This document shows positions 55,657 through 64,000 of a stretch of 64,000 nt of DNA, in pieces (within the stretch, counting starts at the first letter, position 1; every line of letters starts with the position of its first letter). The stretch comes from Rothia terrae (lineage in GTDB: Bacteria; Actinomycetota; Actinomycetes; Actinomycetales; Micrococcaceae), in the NCBI RefSeq assembly GCF_012396615.1, contig NZ_JAAXPV010000002.1:186001-250000 (forward strand). Reading direction: 5' to 3'. The notes under the pieces are model-generated. The model searched no databases, was not told where the DNA came from, and saw nothing but the letters and a program-made list of their open reading frames with translations. The position numbers and the translations under genes were made by a program.

Positions 55657-56040
55657 CTACCCGTCTTCCTTTACGCCGGCAACAGCCTCAAGCTCGCCAC
55701 CCGCCTCAAAACACGTCCTTGTACCCGTATGACAGGCGGCACCCACCTGATCAATCTGAATCAGCAAGGCATCACCATCACAATCCAACGCAACACTTTT
55801 AACGTACTGACGGTGACCGCTGGTATCTCCCTTACGCCAAAACTCCTGCCGTGAACGCGACCAAAAGGTCACACGTCCTTCAGTTAGCGTGCGCTGTAGG
55901 GCTTCATCGTTCATCCACCCCAGCATCAAAACTTCGCAGGTGTCGAACTGCTGAATAATAGCGGCAAATAGACCGTTATCATCTCGTTTTAAACGAGCCG
56001 CAAGGGCGGGATCTAAAGAATGGGTTTGTGCAGTAGTCAT
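55657..56040 (-). CDS. hisI: phosphoribosyl-AMP cyclohydrolase
   Basis: The product has 127 residues from ATG 56040. [18 protein letters not shown] and the metal-binding [10 protein letters not shown] and [12 protein letters not shown] motifs define HisI. It opens the purine ring in histidine synthesis. It heads the trp operon, as hisI does in several actinobacteria, where other his genes lie further upstream; here the TIGR03085 gene is divergent instead. Confidence 0.96.
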
Positions 56041-56162
56041 CAAAAATCATTGTACGCGTCAGCTTTAACGATTACGAAGCGGCACTTTATTACATGAAAC
56101 GCCGCTTTATGTGTGACAGGGTGTGGCTGAAAATAAATGGATATAAGTGACAAAATAGAAGT

Positions 56163-56822
56163 ATGAGTAAAACTAATACCCCGGTTGAGTCCCAACCGAT
56201 GGACGCCGGTTCAATGGTGACAGCCGAGCGTCATGTTCTTGCGGACGCCCTTTTCAACGCTGGCCCCGATGCACCTACCTTGTGCGAAGGCTGGCAGACC
56301 CGCCACCTGTTGGCTCACCTGATTTTGCGTGAGTCAAAGCCCGATGCTGTCGCTGGTATCGCGTTGCCTTTTCTCGCCGACCGCACGGATCGGCTGACGA
56401 ACGAGTATGCCGATAAGCTCCGGGACGAAGATGTGTATGAAGATGCGATTAACACTTTTGTTGAGCTTCTAGGCTACTTCAAGATGCGCGAAAACCGCCC
56501 GCAGCTCGACGCCAATATGAACCTCATTGAGTATTTTGTACACATTGAAGATATTCGCCGTGCGGATGGTCAGTGGGAGCCTCGCAAGCTTCAGCCTGAG
56601 ATTCAACAGAAAATGTGGGCGGCGCTCACCAAGCGTGCCCGTTTGATGGCCGGCAAGAAGTACAAGGATGGGCTGGTGCTTGCGGCCCCCGGCTATTCAC
56701 CAGATTCTGTAACTGTTATCTCGCCCAAGCCGGGCACGCGCGCAACAGTGCTTACCGGTGAGCCGGGCGAGCTCGTCCTCTACCTGTTCGGACGCGAGCA
56801 GGCGAGAGTCACAGTTTCTTAA
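56163..56822 (+). CDS. TIGR03085 family protein (DinB/mycothiol-transferase-like)
   Basis: The product has 219 residues. An N-terminal four-helix region has AERHVLADALFNAGPDAPTL, then CEGWQTRHLLAHLILRE, and EYFVHIEDIRRADGQW contains the second histidine of a metal site. It is related to mycothiol-dependent maleylpyruvate isomerase N-domains. The function is unknown. It is divergent from hisI. Confidence 0.9.
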   Translation: MSKTNTPVESQPMDAGSMVTAERHVLADALFNAGPDAPTLCEGWQTRHLLAHLILRESKPDAVAGIALPFLADRTDRLTNEYADKLRDEDVYEDAINTFVELLGYFKMRENRPQLDANMNLIEYFVHIEDIRRADGQWEPRKLQPEIQQKMWAALTKRARLMAGKKYKDGLVLAAPGYSPDSVTVISPKPGTRATVLTGEPGELVLYLFGREQARVTVS

Positions 56823-57160: not shown

Positions 57161-58546
57161 TTGAGTAATGCACATGCTCAGACTGAGGAAACAACCTGCC
57201 CCCAAGAAATACTGATGCAAAAATTCATCAAGCCCCTAATTTTCCAGAGAGACTGGGTGCACCGCGTTGTTGTTAGTATCAAGTACGATGCCGGCGAACT
57301 TGAAAATTCTCAATCAATTTCGCTCGATTGCACTGTTCCCGATTTTCCGTCTTGGAGAGCAACTAATATTTGTTTGAGCGGTGATGGCTCAACAGAACTT
57401 ACTTGGGCTGCTTCACGGACAAAAGATGATGATCAGGTGATTGTTCCTGTTGCTATGTTGAAAAAAGGCATTATTAACAAGTTAGACGTGACTTTTGAGG
57501 GTAAGAGTCTTTCAGTTCTCACGACGTCGCAGAACAGATCACTTACTTTCGAAATTATTAGAAGTTCGTTAAGTCGCTTGAGCTTGGACGCCACTCAGAT
57601 TGAACAAGCAATGGCAGATGTAACGTGTATTTACGAGCAAAGACCTGAGGGTTCAGTTGATCAAGGTTCTGCGGATGCCACCCAAAATATTTTAGAAATA
57701 ATTGAGAGCTCTCAAATTATTGATGAGGAACGAAGTCGTACACTTTCAGACTTTATATTGCTGTTACAGACGCACTATCTGTTGTTTGTTTTGGTTCCCA
57801 AATCTTGTGTTAAGAAGAGAGTGATTCTGAAATATAAAATTTCAGGCGATGCTTCTAATAAGGTTACTGACCCTGCGCGCAAGCGATTGTTTACACCTCT
57901 AGTTGCTGACTATGAACTTGATTTATGGTGGAATAAGTCTAATCACCATGTAGATGTTTCTTACCCAACTGAGCTCATGATTTCATCTGTTGTTCTTAGC
58001 AGTGAATCTGAGAACTTTGTGGTTGAACGTCCTCAAGTGCACAGATACCATACGAATGTTCCTGCTGAACTGGTTGATCAGTTTTTAGGAAAAAAGCTTT
58101 ATTTTAAGGTTGTTCCAGCCGTTCAATCTCTGCGGCGTTGGAATGCTTGGTTATCAATATTATTTGCGTTGGGTTATTCCGCTGGTCTGTTCATTCAGAT
58201 TTGTGCCACCAAAAATTTTGGATTAGATGATGCTTCGTTGAGATCAGCTGCAACTGTTGTATTGTTGTTGCCTGCTTTGTTGGTTTCTTGGTTGGCACGT
58301 TCAAATGAGCATCCATTCGTGGCAGCTGCGTTTAGTCAACTCCGCTTGGTGTTTCTACTTCAAGCTTTGATTTTGTATTTTAGTTCTGCGACTTTGGTGT
58401 TGCACGTCGGTGGCTGGCTGTGGACACTTTCTTGGTATGCCATTTATTGTGCTGCTGCTGTAGTTTCAATCTATGCAGCTATTTTGCATTGGGTCGTTTT
58501 GAAAGAAAAGCAATCTAGAACAAAGCACTATTTTTCTCGCTGTTAA
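57161..58546 (+). CDS. hypothetical membrane protein, four C-terminal helices
   Basis: The product has 461 residues from TTG 57161, preceded by GAGGGAG. Residues 1-320 are soluble and look beta-rich, with alternating hydrophobic strands. Four membrane helices lie at about 329-346, 364-378, 395-415 and 420-446, and the basic tail KEKQSRTKHYFSRC is probably cytoplasmic. No family is recognised. The base composition is more AT-rich than the core genes. It precedes the restriction-modification genes; a role as sensor or effector is speculation. Confidence 0.75.
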   Translation: MSNAHAQTEETTCPQEILMQKFIKPLIFQRDWVHRVVVSIKYDAGELENSQSISLDCTVPDFPSWRATNICLSGDGSTELTWAASRTKDDDQVIVPVAMLKKGIINKLDVTFEGKSLSVLTTSQNRSLTFEIIRSSLSRLSLDATQIEQAMADVTCIYEQRPEGSVDQGSADATQNILEIIESSQIIDEERSRTLSDFILLLQTHYLLFVLVPKSCVKKRVILKYKISGDASNKVTDPARKRLFTPLVADYELDLWWNKSNHHVDVSYPTELMISSVVLSSESENFVVERPQVHRYHTNVPAELVDQFLGKKLYFKVVPAVQSLRRWNAWLSILFALGYSAGLFIQICATKNFGLDDASLRSAATVVLLLPALLVSWLARSNEHPFVAAAFSQLRLVFLLQALILYFSSATLVLHVGGWLWTLSWYAIYCAAAVVSIYAAILHWVVLKEKQSRTKHYFSRC

Positions 58547-58896: not shown

Positions 58897-60885
58897 TTGG
58901 GCATTAATTATTCGCAGTTCATTTGGAACGTGGCCGATGTGTTGCGTGGTACGTATAAGCAGCATCAGTATGGGCAGATTATTTTGCCGTTTACGGTGTT
59001 GGCGCGTATTGATGCGGTGCTTGAGCCGACCAAGCAGGCAGTGCTCAAGGCAGCTGAGGGCTACGAGCTGGACGCCGTCCCCACGGCAATGCTCGCAGCA
59101 AGGGCTGACCACCATTACAGCTTCTATAACCTGTCTCAGCACAACCTGAAGACGGTTGCGAATGATCCGGATACTCTTGAGCAGAATTTGCGCTCTTACA
59201 TCAATAAGTTCAGCGAGAACGTGCGCGATATTTTTGAGAAGTATAAGTTCGAAGACACTATCGCAGATCTAGCAGCGAACAATCTGCTCTTTCAGGTGAT
59301 TCAGCATTTTGCCAAGGTGAATTTGCACCCTGATAACGTCAGCAATGAGCAGATGGGCAACATCTTTGAGGAGCTGATTCGTAAGTTCGCTGAGGCTTCA
59401 AATGAGACTGCCGGTGAGCACTTTACTCCGCGTGAGGTCATAGAACTCATGGTGAACCTCTTGCTGGCTGATGATGAAGATCTACGCACTGATTACATTG
59501 CACGTTCCGTATATGATCCGACGGCGGGCACAGGCGGCATGCTTTCGGTAGCTGACGATAAGATTCACCAGCTCAATCCCACGGCTGATGTGAGCTTGCT
59601 TGGTCAGGAATTGAATCCTGAGTCTTATGCGATTTGTAAGGCGGACATGGTGGTAAAGGGCCAGGACGTCGATAACATCGCGCTCGGCAACACCCTCACC
59701 GATCCTGCGTTTGAGAACCGTACTTTCCACTATGGTTTGAGCAACCCGCCCTTTGGTGTTGATTGGAAGGGCTCCAAGGCGGTGGTTGAGGCTGAGCATA
59801 AGAACCAGGGTTTTACGGGTCGTTTTGGTGCGGGACTCCCCCGCGTTTCTGATGGTTCTTTGCTCTTCTTGCAGCACCTGATTTCGAAGCTGAATGAACC
59901 GACAGTTTCAGCGAACGGTGTGGCTCAGGTGGGTGGCCGTGGTGCGATTGTTTTGAATGGCTCTCCCCTGTTTACGGGTGGTGCTGGTTCGGGTGAGTCG
60001 AATATCCGTAAGTGGGTTTTGGATAACGATTATCTTGAGGCGATTATTGGTTTGCCGACTGACATGTTTTATAACACGGGTATTTCGACCTATATCTGGG
60101 TTTTGAATAAGCAGAAGAAGGCTGATCGTAGGGGTAAGGTTCAGCTGATTGATGCGACGAATATGTTTGAGAAGATGCGTAAGTCGGTGGGTTCTAAGCG
60201 TAAGCGTCTAAGTGAGAGTCAGATTGTTGAGATTACTCGTTTGTATGCTGCGTTTGATGCTGCGGATGATAAGCGTTCGAAGGTGTTTGATCGTGAGGAG
60301 TTTATGTACCGCACGATTACGGTGGAACGTCCTTTGCGTTTGACGTGGGGTTTTACGGCTGAGCGTGTTGAGGCTTTGTTGGCTTCAAAGGAGTTTGGCA
60401 AGTTGAAGTTGTCTGATTCTGAGGACGCCGCTGTGCGGGCTGGCCTTGCTGAGCTGGTGGAGAGCAAGGCGGGTGTTTTGGGCACCGGTCAGGCTGAGGT
60501 TAAGGACGAATTACTCAAGGTATTTGTGGACGCCGGCACGGTGGTTAAGCCTGCTGCATTGACTAAGTTGGTGGATGAGTTGGCGGTGCGCGATGAGTCT
60601 GCTGATGTGGTGATGAAGTCGAAGAAACCGGTGGCTGATGCGACTCTGCGAGACACAGAGAATGTGCCCTGGGATGAAGACATTCACGAGTATTTGGAGC
60701 GCGAGGTAAAGCCTTTTGTTCCGGATGCTTGGATTGATGAGTCCAAGACTAAGGAAGGTGCAGAGATTCCCTTTACCCGCCACTTCTATGAGTATGTGCC
60801 GCCACGCTCTCTGGAAGAGATTGACCGCGACCTCAACGAAGTGCTCGGCAGAATCAAGAAGCGACTGGAAGAGGTGCAGGCGTAA
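58897..60885 (+). CDS. hsdM: type I restriction-modification DNA methyltransferase subunit
   Basis: The product has 662 residues from TTG 58897, with AGGAG upstream. An N-terminal helical domain is followed by EHFTPREV at 174-181, motif I DPTAGTGGM at 207-215 and the catalytic N6-adenine motif NPPF at 283-286. The C-terminal 200 residues are charged and helical and should bind the specificity subunit. It methylates adenine in the site chosen by HsdS, protecting host DNA. Its stop overlaps the hsdS start by one base. GC content resembles the core genome. Confidence 0.95.
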   Translation: MGINYSQFIWNVADVLRGTYKQHQYGQIILPFTVLARIDAVLEPTKQAVLKAAEGYELDAVPTAMLAARADHHYSFYNLSQHNLKTVANDPDTLEQNLRSYINKFSENVRDIFEKYKFEDTIADLAANNLLFQVIQHFAKVNLHPDNVSNEQMGNIFEELIRKFAEASNETAGEHFTPREVIELMVNLLLADDEDLRTDYIARSVYDPTAGTGGMLSVADDKIHQLNPTADVSLLGQELNPESYAICKADMVVKGQDVDNIALGNTLTDPAFENRTFHYGLSNPPFGVDWKGSKAVVEAEHKNQGFTGRFGAGLPRVSDGSLLFLQHLISKLNEPTVSANGVAQVGGRGAIVLNGSPLFTGGAGSGESNIRKWVLDNDYLEAIIGLPTDMFYNTGISTYIWVLNKQKKADRRGKVQLIDATNMFEKMRKSVGSKRKRLSESQIVEITRLYAAFDAADDKRSKVFDREEFMYRTITVERPLRLTWGFTAERVEALLASKEFGKLKLSDSEDAAVRAGLAELVESKAGVLGTGQAEVKDELLKVFVDAGTVVKPAALTKLVDELAVRDESADVVMKSKKPVADATLRDTENVPWDEDIHEYLEREVKPFVPDAWIDESKTKEGAEIPFTRHFYEYVPPRSLEEIDRDLNEVLGRIKKRLEEVQA

Positions 60886-62165
60886 TGAGTGAAGTACCTT
60901 TCAAAATTCGCTGGCTTTCAGGTGGCGTACCGGACCATTGGCAGATTGTCGAGCCTCGTAGAATCTTCAAGCTAGTTAAAGAACCTGAACGCCCTGGCGA
61001 TGTACATTTGACTCCTTCCCAGAAATACGGTGTCCTTCCGCAGGAAGAGTACATGAAGATTACTGGTGCTAGGGTTGTTCAAAATTTATCTGGTACTCAG
61101 ATGCAACATGTCGAGCCTGGTGACTTTATTAGTCACCTTCGTACGTTTCAGGGTGGTCTTGAGCTTGCAACGATACCCGGCAAAGTTAGCCCTGCGTACA
61201 CGGTGCTTCGCCCAACCGAAGCAGTTTATCCGGGCTTCTTCAAGCATGTTTTGAAGTCACCTGGCTATGTTTCTCAGATTGCTTCTGTGACTGACCAGCT
61301 TCGTGATGGTCAAACTATGCGTTTTAACGAATTCAATCTAACGTGGTTACCGCTCCCTCCACTCGAAGAACAAAAGCGAATTGCGGATGAGCTTGACCGT
61401 GAGCTGGCGGAGATTGATGAGTTTATTGCTGACCAACGAAGGCTCCAAGACTTACTTCAAGAGCGCTTAGTATCTTTGACTTTTGATTTGGCTACTGACG
61501 CTTCAAATCCAGATAGATACGAAACTGGACACCTATTTTGGAAGACTCTCCCTAAGGGGTGGACTCTCCAAAAACTCGGCTGGCATTTCAGAATTGGTAA
61601 TGGCTCTACTCCCTCAACTGAAAATCCAGATTTTTGGACTGATGAAGATACAGGATTTCCTTGGTTCAATAGTTCCATCGTCAATTCGGATGTTGCTCTT
61701 GAACCTGCAAGATTTGTAACTGACAAGGCAATTCGGGAATGCCATCTTCCATTTGTTTCTAAAGATAGCCTTCTAGTTGGTCTAACTGGTCAAGGCAAAA
61801 ACCGCGGAATGGTTACAAAAACTGGAATCGATGCAACTATCAATCAACACATGGCCTTTTTGACTCCGAGAAAAAATAGCCAGTTAGATGTTGATTTTAC
61901 GAATCTCACTCTCACAGCTGCATACCCAGAACTACGACTTTTGAGTGATGGCAATGGTGGAACCAAGGGTGCATTGACCTGTGATGAACTAAAACATTTT
62001 ATGATTCCTACCCTACCCAAAAATATACAATTACAAAAAAATGATTACTACTTCAAATCAGCGATGAAAATAAATAAAATACAAAATGAAATTGGAAAAT
62101 CAATAATTTATTTGAATCAGAAACAAAAATCCTTCACTTTAACATTAATTAATCAATATCGTTAG
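60885..62165 (+). CDS. hsdS: type I restriction-modification specificity subunit
   Basis: The product has 426 residues. Two target-recognition domains (about 1-160 and 215-370) each end in a coiled region; the first has PLEEQKRIADELDRELAEIDEF. The second spacer helix, at about 385-420 (NKIQNEIGKSIIYLNQKQKSF), is more divergent. Each half reads one part of a bipartite target; the target cannot be predicted. From about 61980 the DNA turns sharply AT-rich and stays so into the next gene, so the 3' end of hsdS may have been replaced by recombination. Confidence 0.93.
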   Translation: MSEVPFKIRWLSGGVPDHWQIVEPRRIFKLVKEPERPGDVHLTPSQKYGVLPQEEYMKITGARVVQNLSGTQMQHVEPGDFISHLRTFQGGLELATIPGKVSPAYTVLRPTEAVYPGFFKHVLKSPGYVSQIASVTDQLRDGQTMRFNEFNLTWLPLPPLEEQKRIADELDRELAEIDEFIADQRRLQDLLQERLVSLTFDLATDASNPDRYETGHLFWKTLPKGWTLQKLGWHFRIGNGSTPSTENPDFWTDEDTGFPWFNSSIVNSDVALEPARFVTDKAIRECHLPFVSKDSLLVGLTGQGKNRGMVTKTGIDATINQHMAFLTPRKNSQLDVDFTNLTLTAAYPELRLLSDGNGGTKGALTCDELKHFMIPTLPKNIQLQKNDYYFKSAMKINKIQNEIGKSIIYLNQKQKSFTLTLINQYR

Positions 62166-62179
62166 TAGATTGCATAAAC

Positions 62180-64000
62180 ATGGTCACACAAATTACTGCA
62201 AAAAATCAAATTATCGACACCTGTTCATCGATTGATTTATTGCTAGACTTAGGATTATCCAGGGGAAATTTGTCCCAGCTCATTTCAAGCTTTCTAAGAA
62301 ATCTCTCAGAAGGAATATTAGTCGCAGCAGATCTCGGGATAAATGAGCCTATGAATTGGGAGAACATTCAATCTTCCTCAAATACAGGTAAAAATAATAA
62401 AGAAATAAAATATCTAAAAAAAGTACACGAAGATCTTCAAATATCATTTTCACACTACACAAGAGATGAACAAAACTCAGAAAGATTACTCCTCAAATAC
62501 ATTGAATTTTTAAGTTGGTCAAAAGATTATTTATTAAATAAATTACACATCGACACACTTCAAAATCTGAATAAGTTTCCCTTAAATTCAGACCCAGGGC
62601 TCCAGCCATATTATAAAAAAATTAGTGATAAATTGGCGGAGCTAAGATTATCTGCAGCACCATCGATTAGATATGGATATCGATATTATATCCATTCCTG
62701 CACCGCTGTCTTCTACGATAATAAAATTATTTACGAAGTTACTTACTATGACGCTACGGATTTTTCTTCACCCCAAGATCGTAAAGTATGTTACTTTGAT
62801 AAACAGGTTCCGGCAAATACATCAATCCAATTTAACTTTTACACTGAAGAAATTGAAATTGAAGGCAATCGGATTCCTATACAATTCATCGATTATTTCA
62901 CTATTTCAATTAGACCCAGTGAATTAAGAAATATTGCCCAGTTAGTTAATTTAAAATATTCAGGTGGTTCAAATAACCTTCAATATAAAGCGCTTTCAGA
63001 ATATTTAACACTCCATAATACCGATTTATATCATGTAATTAATTCTGAAGATGACAAATTTGATGAGTTAATGGAGGAACTGTCTAATCTAAGGGTAAGA
63101 AATAAACAAATTTCTGAGATATTAACTAAATCTAAAGAAATACTATCAAACTCTATGCCTGGGCACCGCACATTATCTTACTTACTACTCAAACCGCGGA
63201 ATAAAATAATAAAAACTCAGATTGCCTACGAAAAAAAATTACAAGCCAAATATGTGCACAATTTTTCATCTCGCTGTTATCCCTTTGAAAAAGATCCGCT
63301 TACATCAAGTTTAATTGCACATAATCCGAAGCTCTCAGATGTATTAGAGTTTGAAAATATTGATTCAAATCAAGAGAAATATCTTTACCGGTTAATTGAA
63401 TCAAATATTATTAACACAGGTTCAATATATTTAAGCCGTAAAGATATATTGACTGATCATCTTGATGATAGTCAGCTAAACATATTGATAGAAAAGTTTA
63501 ATTCCTCTCTGGATAAATATACGGAAAATAAAAAAATTATCAAATATGGCAAAAATGTAACTATAAAGAAATACGAGGATGATATTGCTGAAATAATTAA
63601 TATCATTCAACAGAACAATCCAATATCTGGATACAGAAGATGGGCTACCGACTGGATTAGTACCCAGAATTCAGAATTTCTTAGCAATTTTAACGAGGAG
63701 AAAATAGAAATTCTACCGAAATTATTTGATAAGAATTCTATTGCATTCGTGTACGGACCAGCAGGTACCGGTAAATCTACGATGATTAATTTTCTCTCGA
63801 ATTTGTTTTCAGGCAAGAAAAAAATATTTTTAGCTCAAACACATACAGCTGTCAATAATTTAATTGATCGAGTAGATAAAGAAAATTCAAATACTTTCTC
63901 AACCGTTCAAAAATTCCTCAGCAATAGAAAGATTAATTCTGAAAAATATGAATTAGTGATAATTGATGAATCGAGCACGATTGATAATAATCATATTTTA
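62180..64000 (+). CDS. AT-rich superfamily 1 helicase-type ATPase with novel N-terminus (3' end outside window)
   Basis: One frame is open from ATG 62180 to the right edge, 607 codons. Residues 1-510 match no family I know; they contain helical segments and a beta-rich part near 170-260. Walker A GPAGTGKST is at 526-534, followed by QTHTAVNNLIDRV, which resembles SF1 motif Ia, and Walker B VIIDESS at 593-599. This is the pattern of SF1B and Upf1-like helicases. GC in two lines I counted is about 25%, far below the genome. It is 14 bases after hsdS and probably co-transcribed, so a defence function is likely; hsdR itself has a different motif arrangement. Confidence 0.85.
   Translation, partial: MVTQITAKNQIIDTCSSIDLLLDLGLSRGNLSQLISSFLRNLSEGILVAADLGINEPMNWENIQSSSNTGKNNKEIKYLKKVHEDLQISFSHYTRDEQNSERLLLKYIEFLSWSKDYLLNKLHIDTLQNLNKFPLNSDPGLQPYYKKISDKLAELRLSAAPSIRYGYRYYIHSCTAVFYDNKIIYEVTYYDATDFSSPQDRKVCYFDKQVPANTSIQFNFYTEEIEIEGNRIPIQFIDYFTISIRPSELRNIAQLVNLKYSGGSNNLQYKALSEYLTLHNTDLYHVINSEDDKFDELMEELSNLRVRNKQISEILTKSKEILSNSMPGHRTLSYLLLKPRNKIIKTQIAYEKKLQAKYVHNFSSRCYPFEKDPLTSSLIAHNPKLSDVLEFENIDSNQEKYLYRLIESNIINTGSIYLSRKDILTDHLDDSQLNILIEKFNSSLDKYTENKKIIKYGKNVTIKKYEDDIAEIINIIQQNNPISGYRRWATDWISTQNSEFLSNFNEEKIEILPKLFDKNSIAFVYGPAGTGKSTMINFLSNLFSGKKKIFLAQTHTAVNNLIDRVDKENSNTFSTVQKFLSNRKINSEKYELVIIDESSTIDNNHIL

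Follow-up and report, generated by a model that had tools for sequence, protein, structure and literature searches.

A truncated member of the PDC-S53 candidate defence family in a type I restriction-modification operon of Rothia terrae

Introduction

A stretch of 64,000 nucleotides from the actinobacterium Rothia terrae (the window; positions 186001-250000 of contig C12 of genome G000; the letters G, C and L denote genomes, contigs and loci) contains a type I restriction-modification (RM) operon in which hsdS is followed by a long, AT-rich open reading frame (ORF) apparently coding for a helicase, and this raises the question of what kind of protein is encoded there and how it comes to stand within an RM operon. 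A sequence-only reading of the window had proposed an acquired superfamily 1 (SF1) helicase gene, distinct from hsdR, with a 500-residue N-terminal domain of unrecognised kind. As the best explanation of the data given below, which we regard as reasonably probable, the gene is a truncated and divergent PDC-S53 helicase, carried as cargo between hsdS and hsdR in a defence hotspot, and its family would represent an ATP-driven defence motor of superfamily 1B (SF1B).

Both the PDC-S53 family and this kind of site are already known. An excerpt of PMC10855318 describes the PDC systems as derived from 'guilt-by-embedding', contained in PADLOC-DB 2.0.0 and not experimentally validated, and excerpts of further reports place DarTG2 between hsdS and hsdR of E. 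coli EPEC, at a site called a potential recombination hotspot (PMC12255303), the rlo genes of C. jejuni between its hsdR and hsdS (PMC5183652), and PrrC in ecoprrI, linked to type I RM (PMC12707154). The gene in the window shares with these three cases its position as cargo within a type I hsd operon, but differs from them in being a helicase gene, in belonging to an actinobacterium and in being broken. A genus-wide slot of the kind reported here was not met in our non-exhaustive literature searches, and none of the titles on defence or RM in Rothia among the matches listed concerned this site.

Results

Identity and domain composition of the helicase

The ORF starts 14 bases after the last base of hsdS (62165) and runs through 607 codons on the forward strand to the right edge of the window without a stop, exactly as had been read from the sequence, whereas the five other frames of the same DNA contain 42 to 106 stops; because of this stop-free frame and a nearly full-length hidden Markov model (HMM) match, it is regarded as a real coding frame. 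The gene belongs, though divergent in sequence, to PDC-S53, one of the candidate defence families of PADLOC: the profile PDLC05035 matches residues 7-788 with an E value of 4.6e-220 and 731 bits, over positions 4-774 of 900, in a library showing no curated cut-off. This match includes the N-terminal half, as does a weaker one to phrog_325 ('Dda-like helicase') over residues 77-779, while the significant Pfam matches are P-loop families lying within about 504-681, with AAA_30 as the best. The N-terminus lacks a credible Pfam domain, in keeping with the earlier reading, but is not unrecognised; the hit to a described defence family that would contradict that reading is the one to PDC-S53, itself an uncharacterised candidate.

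The helicase motifs I and II read from the window (Table 1) are present in the translation and, together with the PDC-S53 and the RecD2- and Dda-like matches, bear out the SF1 assignment. In motif I, G526, A528, G529, G531 and K532 are invariant in a 24-row alignment, and G526, G529, G531 and K532, as well as D596, E597 and S599 of motif II, are identical in all 36 rows of a larger one; the window copy retains K532, T534, D596 and E597. Ten unbroken relatives, which are 27-34% identical and comprise about 900 residues or somewhat more, all contain blocks corresponding to motifs V and VI, with the consensus sequences SIHKAQGLE and FYTAITRA.

As judged from the predicted model of a relative, the motor and the helical domain preceding it adopt the fold of RecD2 (SF1B; PDB 3gp8), which takes in about 170 of the 500 residues previously assigned to the N-terminal domain. 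The window protein nevertheless differs from RecD2 itself, since the NCBIfam model (TIGR01448) matches residues 400-794 at 78.1 bits, below its curated cut-off of 500, and about 330 additional N-terminal residues lie outside the RecD2 alignment. T4 Dda is different as well, because its chain of 459 residues aligns just from residue 490 of the relative's model onward. Nothing recurrent was found in the N-terminal region by a Pfam scan of 14 N-terminal halves at E values up to 10, in which each of ten families matched just one half (best E value, 0.0029). A comparison of an N-terminal profile with solved structures gave a best E value of 0.044, regarded as chance, and a structure comparison of the whole relative model returned no row restricted to residues 1-328.

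Two other identities were considered and rejected. HEPN ribonucleases carry an R-x4-6-H motif as their hallmark; neither the candidate R40 nor any following histidine is conserved in the 36 rows. HsdR had already been dismissed by the sequence-only reading, rightly so, since a genome-wide HSDR_N search (E 0.001) identified three loci, on C7, C18 and C3, and none on C12.

The window copy is distant from its family. In a tree of 36 proteins, from which the broken or split copies L026, L027 and L030 were left out, it falls outside the main group on a long branch (2.79), its best identity to any other member being 35%; the tree program warns that it may be falsely attracted to a row from a Clostridia metagenome-assembled genome. 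The best match in 396 genomes of the order is 36% identical over residues 26-782, and none of the relatives there, found in seven genomes besides its own, exceeds that value. With a single-protein query no closer relative appeared in viral_contigs, and one at 27% in genome_contigs. Higher values occur elsewhere in short partial matches, namely 38.5 to 50.6% where 10 to 33% of the query is aligned, and 42% over 277 residues in G715.

Truncation by an insertion sequence

Contig C12 stops 691 bases beyond the window, and within this extension the native frame ends at codon 795, where an IS256 insertion sequence (IS) begins at the position equivalent to 64565 of the window. The possibility raised earlier, that the frame is lost soon after the window edge, has thus come true in part, the cut lying 188 codons beyond it; the frame continues into IS256, which supplies the last seven residues and the stop of the 802-residue product. 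The terminal 127 bases of C12 (L002 10565-10691, or 565-691 bases past the window) are identical at 127/127 bp to an IS256 end in all three plasmid records aligned, and a 152-bp query from the contig end matches 786 plasmid records, mostly of Enterococcus and Staphylococcus. This IS256 end, typical of staphylococcal and enterococcal plasmids and here found in an actinobacterial genome, adjoins an aminoglycoside-resistance gene in two of the three plasmid records fetched.

The insertion removes motifs V and VI, which are present in all ten relatives, and since the second RecA domain is incomplete, the helicase copy of this strain is probably inactive, as predicted from its sequence. One might object that the contig end was falsely extended into an IS256 repeat during assembly: C12 does terminate within the repeat, and among 35 genomes of the genus the IS256 end occurs in this one alone. 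Such an artefact is nonetheless very improbable, as the junction coincides exactly with the IS256 terminus common to the three plasmid records and a search of the 41 contigs revealed no C-terminal fragment of the gene at any other place. Searched against its own genome, the PDC-S53 model gives a single strong match, which ends at profile position 777 of 900, and the missing C-terminal end is covered by none of four weak matches (E 0.013 to 0.13).

The host operon and its chromosomal site

The hsdM and hsdS genes are open frames, for which PADLOC recognises a full-length hsdM (5-661) and residues 8-414 of 426 of hsdS. The GC content amounts to 50.8% in hsdM and 55.6% in hsdR, but to 31.1% in the native part of the helicase gene, rather than the 25% estimated earlier, and the drop starts already within the last approximately 60 codons of hsdS (22.8%). 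The earlier proposal that the gene is AT-rich, was acquired and stands within a type I RM operon is borne out.

The hsdR gene, listed with 1055 aa and probably starting at L012 304, opens another contig, C18, preceded there by the end of another IS, which is 93-94% identical to two Rothia terrae plasmids, and by 158 bases with 30.4% GC; it is followed by a 215-aa ORF and a gene which we take to be hisF. In the window genome, the genes presumed to be trpE and hisI lie together with an MDMPI gene to the left of the island on C12. Among 26 hisF loci from other genomes of the genus, seven contain trpE, hisI, the MDMPI gene and hisF together within about 3.7 kb, and five more have the MDMPI gene within about 1.2 kb of hisF. 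Because the flanking genes match this order, the island would lie between the MDMPI gene and hisF, with C12 joined to C18 and hsdR placed beyond the helicase; the helicase gene would then be embedded in a known defence system on both sides, by hsdS at 14 bases and by hsdR through synteny.

Table 1. Features of the window and of related loci (L, locus handle).
Feature	Position	Strand	Basis
PDC-S53-like SF1B helicase gene, first 607 codons	62180..64000	+	ORF, translation, PADLOC profile match
Motif I (Walker A) GPAGTGKST, residues 526-534	63755..63781	+	translation, alignment
Motif II (Walker B) VIIDESS, residues 593-599	63956..63976	+	translation, alignment
hsdS (Methylase_S), last ~60 codons 22.8% GC	60885..62165	+	Pfam, PADLOC, GC
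hsdM (HsdM_N + N6_Mtase)	58897..60885	+	Pfam, PADLOC, genus-wide HsdM search
461-aa protein, no family above cut-off	57161..58546	+	Pfam scan, congener comparison
MDMPI_N-domain gene, left island border	56163..56822	+	Pfam; near hisF in island-free congeners
hisI-like gene (presumed name)	55657..56043	-	neighbour of trpE, MDMPI gene and hisF in congeners
Phage/viral-contig loci with partner gene	L042-L045, L109-L111, L114, L116-L120, L123, L127, L128		
hsdS-hsdR slots of congeners and second loci	L088 8872-13804; L089 11670-13372; L093 9281-11416; L094 10602-12759		
hsdS-hsdR slots of congeners and second loci, continued	L091 3118-4995; L144 3521-7921; L145 3984-4895		

A 37% identical homologue of the 461-aa protein adjoins the MDMPI gene in G002, whose fetched region contains no type I operon.

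The slot between hsdS and hsdR in congeners

Seventeen of the 26 hisF regions were fetched, ten of which contain hsdR sequence akin to that of the window (about 80-93% in the aligned parts), seven of them also hsdM (84-92%). Both genes are full frames in G017, G005 and G020, while in G029 hsdM is full and hsdR can be aligned over its length, though its ORF is given as 732 aa; the remaining hsd-bearing regions are broken or cut by a contig end. The HsdS proteins of the fetched regions are only 24-53% alike, and HsdM relatives (E 1e-50) occur in 13 of the 35 genomes of the genus, own included. At the DNA level, similarity is lost where hsdS begins, reappears in one block within this gene and sets in again 0-15 bp ahead of the start codon of hsdR. 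Between the two genes, the GC content is 32-38% in G005, G017, G020 and G029 (32.6% in the G029 slot, L094 10602-12759), and the slot gene of G008 has 36%.

Similar arrangements exist at other sites. A second hsd locus of the window genome, on C3 (hsdM 86%, hsdR 76%), contains a 303-aa cargo at 35% GC and an IS-like element, and an hsd locus of G033 (hsdM 78%, hsdR 66%) contains a 596-aa cargo at 31% GC and an AAA_14/DUF4143/TIR protein at 48%. When 14 proteins, namely that of the window and mostly slot cargo, were compared mutually, no pair was found at E 0.01, and the two G033 slot proteins matched none of those 14 at 1e-4. PADLOC matches were obtained for two of ten slot-region proteins, a NucC-like PD-DExK nuclease (G017) and a GajA/AriA-like ATPase (G008).

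The genes in the slots listed in Table 1 are further candidates; they are unrelated to one another, AT-rich for the most part, and the majority match no family. A 410-aa ORF (L094 12714-13946) initially considered as cargo of G029 was discarded as probably not a gene, since it overlaps the 5' part of hsdR in a different frame. In the G017 slot, L088 11565-11855 shares about 76% identity with the beginning of hsdR in the window genome, as though the 5' end of hsdR had been duplicated on entry of the cargo. The hotspot also contains type IIG RM proteins, a SIR2 protein near the Aga_SIR2 models and a GmrSD_C-domain protein; in G021 (L090 9285-15840), a 1625-aa type IIG restriction-methylase accompanies such a SIR2 protein, and the fetched stretch has no hsdM or hsdR relative.

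Linkage of the family to type I RM genes

The PDC-S53 family is enriched next to RM genes. Five of 13 chromosomal relatives adjoin type I genes, as judged by blastp with hsd queries, the helicase following hsdM-S-R in G012, G096, G1016 and G1000 and being a remnant beside an hsdR remnant in G560. An HSDR_N match lies within 8 kb in four of the 13, against 0.076 expected (P 5e-7), a value calculated from HSDR_N counts and rounded genome sizes, with the 8-kb distance chosen after the loci had been seen. Note that the queries of the neighbour survey included the hsd proteins of L023, L027 and L029, which yielded self-matches of 96-100%, and that these loci had first been located with the hsd proteins of the window genome.

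This linkage might mean that the helicase is a functional accessory of type I RM, processing ends made by HsdR or guarding against RM inhibition in the way of PrrC, for which the excerpt of PMC12707154 offers a precedent. Two viral contigs would agree with such a role, L105 with hsdS- and hsdR-like genes followed after 18 bp by the helicase, and L041 with hsdS- and hsdM-like genes downstream of it. We consider it unlikely, however, since no close hsd neighbour was detected by blastp in the fetched flanks of eight of the 13 chromosomal relatives or of five near-full-length plasmid copies, and the same slot is filled by unrelated genes in congeners. Hsd-free relatives and unrelated slot genes together suggest co-location rather than a joint mechanism. 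The position also varies: the helicase follows hsdR in all five RM-linked chromosomal relatives, unlike in the window, where it stands between hsdS and, by synteny, hsdR.

Three of these neighbourhoods contain further proteins between hsdR and the PDC-S53 gene, namely an 839-aa protein with partial HsdM similarity in G1016 (L138 11468-13987) and related 508- and 468-aa proteins of an unknown family in two genera (L027 10530-12056 and L029 7182-8588).

Distribution and a phage-borne branch

Matches, counted with the window genome included, were found in two of 35 genomes of the genus (model, E 1e-30), six of 395 of the family and three of 396 of the phylum (model, 1e-40), and eight of 396 of the order (protein query, 1e-20), in samples that overlap. 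In addition, 13 plasmid records match, five with a query coverage of at least 80%, as well as two of 50,697 phage records and, in overlapping sets, 17 viral-contig loci in one search (six over most of the query) and 25 in another. Such a patchy distribution, over phages and plasmids as well as chromosomes, agrees with a mobile accessory gene.

A conserved partner gene coding for 278-464 aa precedes the helicase on the same strand at a distance of 6-56 bp in 16 of 38 surveyed loci, and all four members scanned match phrog_6948 (function unknown). The survey excludes same-contig repeats (L106, L112, L113, L121, L122 and L124) and short frames (L115 and L125), and six loci fetched later stand outside it. 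Among cellular and plasmid copies with a same-strand upstream ORF within 400 bp, the partner was absent by blastp clustering at 1e-3.

These 16 phage and viral-contig copies, together with the phrog_325 match and the two phage records carrying the family, might indicate that PDC-S53 is a phage gene in origin, a Dda-like helicase of replication forks or recombination which is kept in bacterial islands by chance. That origin appears quite unlikely to us in view of the enrichment of chromosomal copies next to hsdR, and of a phi1605 copy beside a type IIS enzyme and a methylase and the L045 copy beside an LlaJI-like gene, both placed in the manner of prophage-carried defence genes.

Discussion

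The gene downstream of hsdS resembles PDC-S53 in its nearly full-length HMM match, including the N-terminal half, and its embedding in an RM operon fits the guilt-by-embedding origin given for such families in the excerpt of PMC10855318; it differs from the other members in its divergence (35-36% identity over most of its length, on a long branch), in its place, by synteny, before hsdR and in the lack of a C-terminus. The family would act as a DNA motor of class SF1B, powered by ATP and similar in kind to RecD2, Pif1 and Dda. Its family-specific N-terminal region of about 330 residues may pick the substrate, whether this is phage DNA, an intermediate of replication or a protein of the phage, and the motor would unwind or remodel the invading DNA, either without the RM enzyme or following its action, in a putative anti-phage role.

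Several points weigh against this interpretation. We know of no activity of any PDC-S53 protein, and the name PDC-S53 was not found in a full-text literature search of 5.39 million papers. The joining of C12 to C18 would follow from synteny, not from sequence, across the stretch between IS256 and the IS end on C18. Because the window copy deviates at 21 of 97 near-invariant columns (polar or Gly, shared by at least 33 of the 36 rows), its biology may differ from that of the family. In eight of the 13 chromosomal relatives (G043, G467, G619, G715, G944, G962, G1035 and G1074) the helicase does not adjoin hsd genes, an HsdM-like piece in G619 being about 8 kb distant. The conserved phage pair also fits a role in phage replication or counter-defence. 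Finally, the slot need not hold defence genes only, since eight of the ten slot-region proteins are without a PADLOC match (one probably no gene, one from a broken locus).

A bolder possibility, which we put forward tentatively and consider rather doubtful, is that the hsd operon of this genus serves as a loading dock, in which hsdM and hsdR stay orthologous while the block from inside hsdS to 0-15 bp ahead of hsdR is swapped as an AT-rich unit, bringing with each new DNA specificity its own unrelated second gene. If so, these second genes would comprise the PDC-S53 helicase, an OLD/GajA-like ATPase, a NucC-like nuclease and proteins of unknown families, and PDC-S53, equipped with a new sensor domain at its N-terminus, would provide helicase immunity on its own and shuttle between prophages and docks.

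For the genus, eight readable or partly readable slots with different fillings make the idea of an embedding site testable and supply further uncharacterised candidates. For the family, which has been catalogued without a function, the relatives now give a predicted fold consisting of a RecD2-like motor and an undescribed N-terminal region; in addition, its linkage to type I RM has been measured, and its branch in phages has a constant partner gene. Each of these points can be tested.
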